From Solibacillus silvestris (GTDB lineage Bacteria > Bacillota > Bacilli > Bacillales_A > Planococcaceae), in the NCBI GenBank assembly GCA_001586195.1, contig CP014609.1, forward strand, positions 2,392,001 through 2,456,000: a stretch of DNA of 64,000 bases, given 5' to 3'. A program made the position numbers and the translations under genes. Within the stretch, counting starts at the first letter, position 1; every line of letters starts with the position of its first letter. This document shows, piece after piece, positions 31,541-35,364 of this stretch. The notes below the pieces were generated by a model. That model made no database searches, was not told where the DNA came from, and saw only the letters and a program-made list of their open reading frames with translations.

Positions 31541-32365
31541 TTATTTAATAACCCCTTCAAATTCTTCAATAGTCTTACTAAACTTTGATTGAGTTTCTGA
31601 GACGGTTCTTTGTAGATCATCTGTTATTTTACTGACTTTTAAAGCTTCACTTGTAATATTTTCTATGTTCGTATTCACATTTTTAATGGCATGATCAACA
31701 TTGCTGGCCAATTTCCGAACTTCATCTGCCACAACTTTAAAACCGCGCCCCTGCTCTCCTACACGGGCTGCTTCGATTGCAGCATTTAAGGCAAGTACAT
31801 TCGTTTGCATCGAAATATTACGTATAATTTTAGTCGTATTAGTAATTAAATCAATTTGTTGCTCCAATGATTTAATAGCTTGTATTTTTTCCATTGAATT
31901 TTCAACAACAAGATTTACTAACTCTGTTGGCATTTCCTTTAATTGAGAAGTAATTTTTATTGTGCTATTTTCCCGCTCTGTAATATTAGTTGCAATTTTA
32001 AGTACAGCTTCTACTTGCCCTTCGTCATCCATAATTGGAATATAGGTAGCCTCCAACCAAAGTAGATTCCCCGTTTTCCCAAGCCTTTGGATTTTGCCCT
32101 GATACTTTTCCCCTTTACCAAGACAATCCCATAATTCTTCATAGGCGCTGCTGTTTCTGAAATCAAGTGGACAAAACTCTTTATGTACCATCTTTTTCAT
32201 TTCACCTACTGTATATCCTAATGTTTTAGCGAAATTTTCATTTACCCAAATAACCTCTTTGTTTAGGTTAAATTCTATCATGGCCAAATTTGATTCTAGT
32301 GCAGTCAATACAGATGTTTCATTTAAAATTTGTGTCGTGCTATTGTTAGGCGGAAAAGTTTTCAT
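31541..32365 (-). CDS. Soluble PAS-domain chemoreceptor-like protein
   Basis: This is a 274-residue protein without membrane segments. A PAS domain covers ~18-132 ([28 protein letters not shown], then IATNITERE). It is followed by a short four-helix signalling hairpin (~135-270) whose tip, [29 protein letters not shown], is the conserved CheA/CheW-contact region of methyl-accepting proteins. It resembles short cytoplasmic receptors such as YfmS and may sense redox or a small ligand. It is monocistronic and was assigned no ligand. The full receptor coiled coil is shortened, so it might not join standard arrays. Confidence 0.85.
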
Positions 32366-32522: not shown

Positions 32523-33710
32523 CTAACTGTTCTCATGCCTTTGTTTATTTGCAACATACATCAGCAGAACAAGCATGAGCATTGTCATGATCAAAAATGC
32601 AATGGCATCCCAAAACGCGGCACGATCGCCTGTTCCGAGAAGATTTAAATAAATAGTAGTATAAGTGTAATAAAGCTGTGGTACAAAATACAACACGGCC
32701 AAAATTAATGTTAAAACAATTCCAACTATGTAAAACACACTATACAGACGGATCAAGTTCCATTCTCCCTGGAACAACTCTTTATTAATTTCCTCATCTT
32801 TTCGTCGTTTCTTAAATCTGGAGTTCAAATAGATTTTGCCGTTTTCCATCAAGTTATAACAGCCTGTTATATTTTCTACAACATAATAAACATCGGTTTT
32901 CATATAGAAACAGCATTGATAGATAAATTTAATGAAAATATCCAAAACGATGATCCCGAGAATTCCTATAATGCCCGCATCCGGAAAAAGAAGCATTGCA
33001 CCAAGTGAAAGGAAAAGAATTACTTGCTCAAAGGACAGTCCGGCAAGGTACAGTATATTTCTCTTTTTGGGATCGAGCTTCCAAGCTTGAGTGAGGTCTG
33101 TTTCAAAAACAATAAATATCAGCCGATTTCCAATACTTAATTTAGCCGGCAAGTCATGTGATCGAATGGCAAGGATATGTCCAAATTCATGTATTAAAAT
33201 TAATAATAAAGATATAAATAAATAGCTTATAATATTCAGCATCATAGAATCAAAGAGAAATATATCTTTGTAAAGGGGGAAAAGATTCGGATTCAGTATG
33301 AGCATGACGATGTTCGCTACGAGCAAAAGCAAGTAGATCTTGTTCATCACTCCATTAAAAAATATGCGCCCCACCGAATGCGGAATCCATAGGAAACCAC
33401 CCGAACGTGATGTGGATTTAGACTGCTCTTTCTTAACGAGCACACCATCCACTTCTTGAACAAGTCCTAACTCCAATAGTTGCTCCACAAAATCTATAAT
33501 ATCCACTTCTTCATCTGGATATGAAGTTTTTAATGCATGTTCAATTGAAACAAGTTCCTCACCTTGTTCCAAACGTTTGATGGCATCCACACCTATCTCA
33601 GGCAATTCGAAGAAATCACCTGAAATCGGCTCTTCTACAATATAATGTTTTTTATCTTTTCGAATGGATAACGGATATAACGTTATTTCGGATTGCAAGG
33701 ATACCTTCAA
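32523..33710 (-). CDS. PqqD-like domain fused to M50 membrane metalloprotease
   Basis: This is a 395-residue protein from a TTG start at 33710 with AAGGAGG eight bases upstream. Residues ~8-90 resemble a PqqD/RRE peptide-recognition fold (YIVEEPISGDFFELPEIGVDAIKRLEQG...). From ~120 on there are about eight membrane helices with the zinc site HEFGH (~175-179) and a distal MKTDVYY, the third-ligand segment of M50 'peptide zinc metalloproteases' such as YydH. It lies 68 nt after a 21-codon gene encoding a Cys/Trp-rich peptide, from which it is separated by a perfect palindrome. The likely job is to bind, cleave and perhaps help export that peptide. No radical SAM or other modifying enzyme is adjacent. 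Confidence 0.75.
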   Translation of the reverse strand: MKVSLQSEITLYPLSIRKDKKHYIVEEPISGDFFELPEIGVDAIKRLEQGEELVSIEHALKTSYPDEEVDIIDFVEQLLELGLVQEVDGVLVKKEQSKSTSRSGGFLWIPHSVGRIFFNGVMNKIYLLLLVANIVMLILNPNLFPLYKDIFLFDSMMLNIISYLFISLLLILIHEFGHILAIRSHDLPAKLSIGNRLIFIVFETDLTQAWKLDPKKRNILYLAGLSFEQVILFLSLGAMLLFPDAGIIGILGIIVLDIFIKFIYQCCFYMKTDVYYVVENITGCYNLMENGKIYLNSRFKKRRKDEEINKELFQGEWNLIRLYSVFYIVGIVLTLILAVLYFVPQLYYTYTTIYLNLLGTGDRAAFWDAIAFLIMTMLMLVLLMYVANKQRHENS

Positions 33711-33732: not shown

Positions 33733-33764
33733 AAATAGGATGCTATAATTATAGCATCCTATTT
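33733..33764 (-). terminator. Perfect 32-bp palindrome between peptide gene and M50 gene
   Basis: Sixteen-base arms (33733-33748 and 33749-33764) are exact complements. On the minus strand the second arm ends CCTATTT and is followed by TAAATT, a weak U-run. It is therefore a probable partial terminator giving more peptide than protease message; an operator is also possible. Confidence 0.6.
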
Positions 33765-33778
33765 ATGTATATTACTTA

Positions 33779-33844
33779 TTATTTTGGGACTAACCAGCAC
33801 CACCAGCAAGTAACTTTAATTTTATTCAGTTTGCGAATTTTCAT
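33779..33844 (-). CDS. 21-residue Cys/Trp-rich peptide (CWWCW), candidate pheromone or RiPP precursor
   Basis: This ATG-initiated gene has a strong ribosome binding site (GAGAGGAGGAGAG) whose spacing favours the ATG at 33844. It overlaps the last 23 bases of the HD-GYP gene in another frame. The peptide is basic at the N-terminus (five Lys/Arg in the first ten residues) and ends TCWWCWLVPK before tandem TAA stops. The next gene encodes a PqqD-like/M50 protease, and a palindrome follows the stop codons. The layout is that of a peptide precursor with its processing protease. The tail recalls cyclic-thiolactone AgrD peptides (C-x-W-x-W then P), but there is no AgrB and the peptide is much shorter. 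No homologue is recognised. Confidence 0.65.
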   Translation of the reverse strand: MKIRKLNKIKVTCWWCWLVPK

Positions 33845-35018
33845 GCTTCTCTCCTCCTCTCATATCCACACCTTTACGATATGTCTTAGCAATATTTACC
33901 CATTGAGGATAAATCTGTTTAAATAATTCTATCAGTTGTGGATCGAACTGATTCCCTTGACCTTCAAGAATTCTTTGATGGGCTACTTCAAATTGTAATG
34001 CAGGACGATACGATCTGGATGAAGTCATCGCATCAAAAGCATCCGCTACCGCAGTAACTCTCGCTAAAAATGGGATATTTTCTCCTGCGAGTCCCCCTGG
34101 ATATCCTTTTCCGTCCCATCTTTCATGATGATGATAAATTACATCAATATTATCGGCAATTCCATCAACGTCTCGAATAGCTTCGGCGCCAACAACCGGG
34201 TGTGTCTTAATTATATCATACTCTTCATCCGTCAAACTACCAGACTTTGTCAAAATCGAATCCGGTATATTCACTTTTCCAATATCATGCAAAAGACATG
34301 CATAATAAAAATTATTTAATTCGGAAGGTTTAAATTTCCCAGTGGCTTCTGCCATATTCATTGCATATGCTGCAACCCGTTCACTATGGCCACGCGTATA
34401 TGGATCCTTCAATTCCAATGTAGCAATAACCCCTTTAACAATACTTTCCAACTGTTCATCATATGAATACTTTAATGCTTTAATATAATTTAAAAAGCGA
34501 TGAAGTAGGATAAATGAAATAAATGATAAGACAATTAATATACTAATTGGGAACAATACCAGTATATCCCGTATAAATATACCAACTAATACATATTTCA
34601 GTAGTAAACCAAGTGTTATATAATATGTAAATTTCTTACTCACAAAAATTGGAGAGAAAAGAATAACTACAAGTTCTACCATATTTCCACTAGTGTAGGG
34701 AAGAGTGCTATCTTTATAATAGAATATATCAGAAAATAAATTAGTTAAAAAATAACAGAAAAATAATATGTATTTTACAGATTCTGTTTTCGCTTTTTTT
34801 ATTAAATATATTGATAATGGAATTAGTGCAATCATGACTCCGAATTTAACAAATAAAAAATCGTACCATACCCTACTTTTTGTATTAACATCGCTCCATG
34901 GAAATGTTGGAAAAAGATTATTATAGAAGATTTCATAAACAAAAAATACCACATAAAATAACCATAAAAATAATACAGTTGAACGCTTTTCTTCTTGTAA
35001 CAATGATGTTTTTTTCAT
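33822..35018 (-). CDS. Membrane-anchored HD-GYP phosphodiesterase
   Basis: This is a 398-residue protein with six or seven hydrophobic segments over residues ~12-175, then a complete HD-GYP domain (~185-375). The metal site reads HDIGK, HHHERWDGKGYPGG is the GYP segment, and ADAFDAMTSSRSYRP is the downstream signature. The expected activity is hydrolysis of cyclic di-GMP (or cGAMP) at the cytoplasmic face. GAGGT precedes the ATG. Its last 23 bases overlap the small CWWCW-peptide gene, so the two share a transcript. The membrane part could sense the mature peptide, but that is speculation. Confidence 0.88.
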   Translation of the reverse strand: MKKTSLLQEEKRSTVLFLWLFYVVFFVYEIFYNNLFPTFPWSDVNTKSRVWYDFLFVKFGVMIALIPLSIYLIKKAKTESVKYILFFCYFLTNLFSDIFYYKDSTLPYTSGNMVELVVILFSPIFVSKKFTYYITLGLLLKYVLVGIFIRDILVLFPISILIVLSFISFILLHRFLNYIKALKYSYDEQLESIVKGVIATLELKDPYTRGHSERVAAYAMNMAEATGKFKPSELNNFYYACLLHDIGKVNIPDSILTKSGSLTDEEYDIIKTHPVVGAEAIRDVDGIADNIDVIYHHHERWDGKGYPGGLAGENIPFLARVTAVADAFDAMTSSRSYRPALQFEVAHQRILEGQGNQFDPQLIELFKQIYPQWVNIAKTYRKGVDMRGGEKHENSQTE

Positions 35019-35364
35019 TTTTTACCTCACAATTTAATTACCAATCAATAGACCATATGCTCCACATTCGATTATAGCACGAGAATATAAATTAGTTCTA
35101 TATGTCTATGATTTAAATTTCTCATTTTTTTATTTATTTACTCTTTTAACCATAATACATTCACTTTGTACCTATATGTTATTAAATTAAAAATTTATTT
35201 ACTACTATTTCAATAAGACTAACTTAACAATACCCCTTTATACCATACAACTCAATTCCTATTTTTTCATTTCCGAATATTTAAGTTCATTTAAAAATTT
35301 TAAATAAGACTAAATCTAAAGACTCATGCATATAAAAAGAATTCTTTCGTCTAAAAATATTAAA
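35019..35364. other. AT-rich intergenic region without a recognised gene
   Basis: It carries only short, non-coding open frames on both strands and presumably the HD-GYP promoter. No repeats or structured RNA were recognised. Confidence 0.5.

Follow-up and report, generated by a model that had tools for sequence, protein, structure and literature searches.

A conserved three-gene cassette of Bacilli with a 21-codon peptide gene, an RRE-M50 protease and a MASE12-HD-GYP protein: a candidate peptide signal linked to cyclic di-GMP

Organization of the locus in Solibacillus silvestris

The window, by which we mean the whole stretch of 64,000 nucleotides that was analysed, covers positions 2,392,001-2,456,000 of a Solibacillus silvestris genome of 3.99 Mb in a single contig (class Bacilli; order Caryophanales according to NCBI). 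Three neighbouring genes on its minus strand are considered here. The first one (33822-35018, minus strand) encodes a protein of 398 aa in which Pfam places the membrane sensor MASE12 at residues 8-173 and HD_5 at residues 199-362. Its 3′ end overlaps by 23 nt a gene of 21 codons (33779-33844, minus strand), which starts with ATG and encodes a CWWC peptide of 21 aa, MKIRKLNKIKVTCWWCWLVPK. A Shine-Dalgarno sequence, AGGAGG (33853-33858, minus strand), is positioned 8 nt from this ATG, and thus the short frame with a strong ribosome binding site overlapping the HD-GYP gene, as described in the first-pass annotation, is confirmed in its coordinates and its AGGAGG. Purine-rich sequences resembling a Shine-Dalgarno sequence precede the peptide gene in relatives as well. 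The third gene (32523-33710, minus strand) starts with TTG and encodes a protein of 395 aa, with a PqqD-like RRE at residues ~1-92 followed by a membrane domain similar to M50/site-2 proteases, carrying HEFGH at residues 174-178 and a distal aspartate, D273. Between the peptide and the protease genes lies a 32-bp palindrome (33733-33764, minus strand), a terminator- or attenuator-like hairpin followed by a U-rich tract; it had been called perfect, and a search of its own genome bore this out, since the element matched its reverse complement at every position.

The three genes probably form one operon. Upstream of them, a TATAAT box resembling a -10 element (35071-35076, minus strand) and a -35-like TAGAAC (35095-35100, minus strand), separated by an 18-nt spacer, could represent the promoter. 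TATAAT is present in 9 of the 12 aligned Solibacillus loci, in a stretch ahead of the HD-GYP gene that is conserved among them, and the alignment of upstream regions in Sporosarcina showed no clear promoter box. Directly downstream of the M50 gene, the window also holds a gene for a short protein with PAS and MCP-signal domains according to Pfam (31541-32365), which has no counterpart at the other 21 loci in the 22-locus clustering described below.

Conservation of the peptide gene

Loci related to that of the window were reached through the protease or through MASE12, and by the peptide pattern in the genus only; peptides accompanied by neither protein would therefore be missed beyond the genus. 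The 60 loci collected in this way were reduced by 9 duplicates to 51 distinct cassettes with 47 distinct peptides, and three further cassettes from the class search (G350, G493 and G549) brought the total to 54. The order HD-GYP, CxWC peptide, RRE-M50 is found in all 54 distinct cassettes, with M50 identity down to 39%. Cassettes are carried by 15 named genera of Bacilli: Solibacillus, Ureibacillus, Oceanobacillus, Sporosarcina, Pallidibacillus, Bacillus, Aquibacillus, Virgibacillus, Alkalihalobacterium, Ornithinibacillus, Gracilibacillus, Lentibacillus, Pseudalkalibacillus, Neobacillus and Perspicuibacillus. At the level of the genus, 12 of the 16 genomes have a single match each to the pattern KVTC-(W, F, C or L)-WC, and the peptide, M50 and MASE12 are all present in the same 12. 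A close M50 orthologue was detected in 22 of the 261 family genomes, and a distant one in 5 more; in all 22 genomes with the close orthologue, the peptide gene lies between those for HD-GYP and M50. Likewise, the GTDB contig collection was scanned and yielded 38 loci, whose M50 identity is 39-76%; each of them (38/38) has both the peptide and HD-GYP.

The peptides measure 19-24 aa and follow the consensus M-K-[I/V]-[R/K]-[K/R]-L-x5-T-C-[W/F/Y]-W-C, continued by 3-8 variable residues. Exceptions are L029, with N at position 2, and L130, where two residues are inserted ahead of the first Cys. Most start codons are ATG, but GTG is used in a few cases and TTG in one. The Cys pair is invariant in the 50 cassettes compared, five of which have Phe or Tyr in place of Trp14. 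Substitutions were counted in 50 of the 51 cassettes, L130 being dropped for its insertion, and in codons 2-16 they gave a pS of 0.66 and a pN of 0.092, which means that this part of the gene is under strong purifying selection. In the four codons after CWWC the values were 0.72 and 0.54, respectively. The same distribution is visible among the 12 Solibacillus loci, where pS and pN are 0.39 and 0.044 in the core, and 0.70 and 0.27 in the tail.

The first-pass annotation had proposed aligning the short frames of related trios, expecting conserved Cys and Trp and a bias towards synonymous change, and had named loss of the frame between two retained neighbours as evidence against the gene. The Cys pair and the synonymous bias were both found in the relatives, and not one such loss occurred in the 54 cassettes. 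With a frame kept throughout and purifying selection over codons 2-16, the 21-codon ORF is, on comparative grounds, a real and conserved precursor-like gene. The peptide has no match in Pfam or NCBIfam. Conservation suggests a division into a leader and a core, and what had been described as a basic first half followed by a CWWC-tail motif holds in part: the basic start and TC[W/F/Y]WC are conserved, but the residues beyond, which had been read as part of an AgrD-like ring, are variable.

A pattern search of the family allowing two mismatches was uninformative, as 209 of the 261 genomes matched and the reversed control matched often too. Among the matches listed, an exact one outside the cassettes, in G091 (L090), is out of frame in a gene resembling those for solute-binding proteins and was regarded as a chance match.

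The hairpin between the peptide and protease genes

By a strict rule, a hairpin follows the peptide stop codon in 46 of 51 cassettes, compared with 48 of 1020 mononucleotide shuffles. In the remaining five (L121, L129, L136, L138 and L142) an inverted repeat can be recognized by eye, with a poor T tract in L121 and L129, and visual inspection of three further cassettes showed a clean hairpin in L176 and L178 and an imperfect one in L180. The stem GGATGC/GCATCC is preserved across genera, being matched by a loose pattern in 48 of 51 cassettes, and such sequence conservation exceeds the needs of a terminator. In L128 and L131 the stem is entirely different, a replacement that one would expect if the element is a terminator or an attenuator. 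A repeat family was considered as the source of the hairpin and rejected, because GGATGCT-N4-14-AGCATCC occurs at just one other place in the Solibacillus genome. Since the hairpin would limit read-through, the peptide is probably made in excess over the protease.

The position of Trp and Cys codons immediately ahead of a conserved terminator-like hairpin raises the question of attenuation, with the short frame acting as a regulatory leader peptide whose translation controls the hairpin and hence the protease gene. In a leader of this kind a single run of regulatory codons would be conserved and the rest would be free, whereas here the N-terminal half of the peptide and its CWWC part are equally conserved and synonymous change is free. 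Furthermore, Trp14 gives way to Phe or Tyr in the five cassettes mentioned, L128 and L131 have a wholly different stem, the downstream gene is not an amino-acid gene, and the distance from the peptide stop to the protease start ranges from 42 to 287 nt (in the 49 of 51 cassettes with a plausibly placed start). We therefore disfavour attenuation and consider it very improbable.

Composition and distribution of the unit

When genes of at least 80 aa around 22 loci were clustered, HD-GYP and RRE-M50 were the clusters present in 22/22, followed by clusters in 8/22. The minimal set inferred initially, with no AgrB, radical SAM protein or cyclodehydratase, is upheld by this clustering, in which none of the three is common to the 22 loci. 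The conserved unit likewise includes no exporter, tailoring, immunity or ABC gene, no Rgg-type regulator, and no additional gene common to more than 8 of the 22 loci.

In the class sample of 398 genomes, the protease profile matched 38 genomes. Nine of them matched at E≤1.5e-150, and these are exactly the nine with MASE12; MASE12 was not matched in the other 29, which the profile hits at 1e-74 or weaker, so that no genome is discordant. All nine genomes with the cassette-type M50 and MASE12 also hold the peptide. Carriage on plasmids was considered as well, but when the protease was compared with PLSDB by tblastn, 25 records were obtained, 21 of them from Streptomyces and the best 20 with at most 29.2% identity, with no sign of a cassette.

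The MASE12-HD-GYP protein

Both halves of this protein are assigned with confidence by Pfam (MASE12, PF20971, E-value 3.7e-72; HD_5, PF13487, 1.1e-37). Residues H211, H244-D245, H297-H298-E299, D302-G303 and G305-Y306-P307 are invariant in 32 HD-GYP sequences, and the HD-GYP half superimposes on the HD-GYP domain of PA4781 with Z 24.3 over 200 residues. With HD and HHExxDGxGYP motifs intact, the HD-GYP half is canonical and is predicted to be a c-di-GMP phosphodiesterase. With 21 GGDEF matches in the own genome, c-di-GMP is probably in use. The lists of fold matches gave no relative of the MASE12 half, which the comparison barely covered, and nothing relevant on MASE12 (PF20971) was found in open-licence PMC papers.

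MASE12 scored above the cutoff in 12 of 16 genomes of the genus, 23 of 261 of the family, 9 of 398 of the class, and 1 of 319 of the phylum (the own genome), these samples being overlapping, and in none of 14 control genomes. In the family, 22 of the 23 genomes above the cutoff are cassette genomes; the exception, G106, has a weak MASE12 protein (32-34 bits) with no peptide or M50 seen nearby. In another family genome, G209, the MASE12 match is below the cutoff. An HD-GYP protein with weak MASE12 (32 bits), encoded in L167 (5405-6565) with neither peptide nor M50 seen nearby, is possibly a relic or a divergent receptor.

At least five of the 54 cassettes include, next to the trio, a second type of MASE12 protein with the domain joined to HisKA and HATPase. 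These MASE12-histidine kinases are encoded in L133 (193-1797), L136 (1218-2495), L138 (1054-2307), L176 (3435-4649) and L180 (3525-4763), one of the five genes being divergent to the trio and its product containing a PAS domain. The number is a lower bound, because the search used the motif and short flanks. For a domain seen almost exclusively next to a single peptide gene, and on two unrelated outputs, the best explanation would be that it reads this peptide. A tie to cyclic di-GMP had been suggested as possible in the first-pass annotation, and the linkage of an HD-GYP protein with intact catalytic motifs in 54/54 cassettes agrees with it; the near-exclusivity of MASE12 and its recurrence on kinases turn it into a specific receptor hypothesis, in which an effect on c-di-GMP would follow from binding of the peptide.

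The RRE-M50 protease

Pfam scores for the protease are below threshold: 19 bits for the PqqD-like stretch of the window protein (PF05402, cutoff 23.4), and, for the M50 stretch (PF02163, cutoff 27.2), 11.8 bits in the window protein and 25.3 in that of L142. Residues H174, E175, H178 and D273 are nevertheless invariant in 33 protease sequences. The AlphaFold model (mean pLDDT 84) splits into an N-terminal domain and a membrane part. In VIA-align comparisons, the best matches of the N-terminal domain were TbiB1 (5v1v/5v1u) and lasso B1 (6jx3), with Z 10.5 and rmsd 2.4-2.8 over 79-83 residues, and these structures are RREs solved with bound leader peptides. However, unrelated chains also matched the RRE part, namely a methyltransferase (8hkr, Z 9.0) and GdmN and NO66 chains (Z 6-7), which means that Z values near 9-10 are not far above background. 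Foldseek gave no match at E≤0.001, with TbiB1 chains being the best at 0.017, and a sequence-profile search of solved structures found none. The membrane part was matched by SpoIVFB (8vjl; Z 9.8, 3.7 Å over 130 residues), RseP (7w6y; Z 9.1, 132 residues) and MjS2P (3b4r; Z 6.9, 149 residues). The model thus supports an RRE-like fold at the N-terminus, and it places the HExxH and distal Asp typical of M50/site-2 proteases in a predicted membrane core. Both parts of the earlier description, a TTG-started M50 protease and a PqqD-like N-terminal domain, are in this way backed by predicted fold where the Pfam scores fall short.

A protease whose closest match in its membrane part is SpoIVFB could also belong to a switch that operates inside a single cell. 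The peptide would then remain in the cell as a small membrane-bound regulatory subunit of MASE12-HD-GYP, its CxWC pair sensing redox state or a metal, and RRE-M50 would destroy it and thereby reset the switch; control of site-2 proteases by small proteins is a comparable arrangement. The invariance of the Cys pair (50/50), the absence of an exporter from the unit and the S2P-like fold would all be in accordance with such a sensor. On the other hand, the variable tail and the RRE-like fold resemble precursor processing, and the strong ribosome binding site, together with the hairpin ahead of the protease gene, suggests a product made in excess. We consider a cell-autonomous sensor unlikely, albeit the most probable of the alternatives weighed here.

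Proposed mechanism

The constant trio points to an undescribed peptide signal controlling cyclic di-GMP. We favour, with a probability of roughly 55%, the reading in which the locus is a self-contained peptide-signalling cassette, with MASE12-HD-GYP as the receptor and the RRE-protease as the maturation enzyme. According to this model, the operon would make the MASE12-HD-GYP membrane receptor, the precursor of 19-24 aa, probably in excess, and the RRE-site-2-protease. The RRE would bind the conserved basic leader (MKIRKLxxxxxT), and the M50 domain would cut it in or near the membrane, freeing a short peptide composed of CWWC and the tail. The freed peptide could leave the cell directly or through a housekeeping exporter. 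MASE12 would then sense the free peptide, and the long helix leading to HD-GYP would transmit the signal, changing c-di-GMP hydrolysis in one direction or the other. A further MASE12 receptor, present in a few species, would feed a histidine kinase instead.

Contacts of this kind could leave traces of coevolution, and partial Mantel correlations were calculated on the 50 cassettes in six tests. With the protease controlled for, tail distance tracked the HD-GYP protein, with r 0.17 (p 0.0035) for the MASE12 part and r 0.29 (p 0.0005) for the HD part, but did not track RRE (-0.10) or M50 (0.03). Leader distance, with the remaining parts controlled for, tracked RRE (0.18, p 0.019) and not MASE12 (0.03). 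The direction would fit contacts between leader and RRE and between tail and receptor, but the effects are small and the partial Mantel test is liberal, and we give the result little weight; a receptor-specific reading is particularly weak, because the tail correlates more with the HD part than with MASE12.

Several features of the signalling model would be new if taken together: MASE12 as a peptide-receptor domain that is found also on kinases, a peptide signal with a direct action on a c-di-GMP phosphodiesterase, of which no earlier case is known, and an RRE-guided site-2 protease dedicated to maturation of the signal. This fuller proposal is put forward tentatively, its chances being in our estimate a little short of even. 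If it is true, one peptide could act on c-di-GMP and on a phosphorelay alike. The cassette provides MASE12, so far an orphan sensor domain, with a concrete candidate ligand, and its three genes, a unit that can be moved into Bacillus subtilis, would tie Gram-positive peptide signalling to cyclic di-GMP. It is also an example of an RRE-protease system in which no tailoring enzyme is linked, and such systems are likely to be missed by RiPP mining based on tailoring enzymes and by gene callers that skip 21-codon genes.

Relation to known systems

Agr (AgrBDCA) thiolactone signalling comprises a precursor, a membrane protease and a membrane receptor in one operon, with Cys and aromatic residues in the core of the precursor. 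The cassette likewise combines a precursor having a core of Cys and aromatic residues with a membrane protease and a candidate membrane receptor. Unlike in Agr, its protease is M50-RRE and not AgrB, the candidate receptor is an HD-GYP protein, and the peptide has no long tail and no family match. The analogy with AgrD drawn initially therefore does not extend to homology, as the peptide matches neither Pfam nor NCBIfam and AgrB is missing from the unit.

In the SHP/Rgg systems of streptococci, precursors of 22 and 23 aa are encoded by unannotated small ORFs, the activity resides in the C-terminal 8-9 residues, and processing is aided by Eep, a site-2 metalloprotease (PMC3150281); export is ascribed to PptAB (PMC5167397). 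Similar to these, the cassette has a peptide of 19-24 aa with a linked site-2-protease-like gene, which would process it. It differs in having no shared Rgg, the candidate receptor being the membrane MASE12-HD-GYP and not a cytoplasmic Rgg, as well as in the Cys pair of the peptide core and in a dedicated, RRE-fused protease. We do not class the cassette as SHP/Rgg or Agr, because the genes defining those systems were sought in the conserved unit and are absent.

Regarding c-di-GMP, a 2022 review of its sensing names BDSF (with RpfR) and AI-2 (with a dCACHE cyclase) as quorum signals with direct receptors, and the main text of that review, searched by word start, contains "peptide" a single time, as part of a general remark (PMC8846402). 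Direct reading of a quorum molecule by an enzyme of c-di-GMP turnover is also what we propose for the cassette, but the signals of those two systems are a fatty acid and AI-2, not a peptide. In open-licence PMC papers we found no description of an HD-GYP/CWWC peptide/RRE-M50 cassette. The kind of signalling, with precursor, membrane protease and membrane receptor, is known, but none of the three parts of the cassette is the one known from it.

The remaining comparison is with RiPP-type loci, including the epipeptide EpeXEP and pearlins. Distant homologues of the cassette protease, with 23-28% identity and of the same protein family, are found in RiPP-like contexts, and the RRE-M50 family therefore probably acts on short ribosomal peptides. 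ThiF-family genes beside them were confirmed by Pfam in L100, L102, L104 and L191, and recognized by eye in further loci. The cassette branch has no linked tailoring enzyme: in contrast to the RiPP-type loci, it has no common ThiF, radical SAM or ABC gene, and it has MASE12-HD-GYP instead. Although a precursor with a putative leader and core stands beside an RRE-bearing enzyme, as in RiPP loci, we do not class the cassette as one, because only HD-GYP and RRE-M50 are common to 22/22 loci and no tailoring enzyme is among them.

The same comparison bears on the possibility that the product is an antimicrobial or self-toxic peptide, cationic, Trp-rich and similar to epipeptides or bacteriocins, which would be matured by RRE-M50, with MASE12-HD-GYP sensing the product or the damage. 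M50 proteases do work in the epipeptide (EpeX) and pearlin pathways (PMC10885120), and the distant protease relatives adjoin ThiF-family and radical-SAM genes. Yet the conserved unit lacks an immunity or ABC gene and a tailoring enzyme, and the TCxWC core is constant over deep divergence, and we regard a toxic product as improbable, even more so than a cell-autonomous sensor.

At the distant locus L030 (3334-7460; G038, from another family), the genes for two Radical_SAM proteins precede one for an RRE-M50-like protein and ABC genes, forming another RiPP-like cluster. In L100, L101 and L102, from genus g14 of the family to which Solibacillus belongs, the precursors have 21 aa, as in the window, and three tandem genes for them precede the distant RRE-M50 gene, forming a multi-copy RiPP-like locus. 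The tandem peptides are MKKIKVKVLPKVGLPANRANT and MAKIKVKVLPKVGLPANRATT, the latter with a one-residue variant, and they contain a KIKV stretch. Downstream of the RRE-M50 gene, L100 has DUF2785 and ThiF-family genes, and a similar gene is present in L102.
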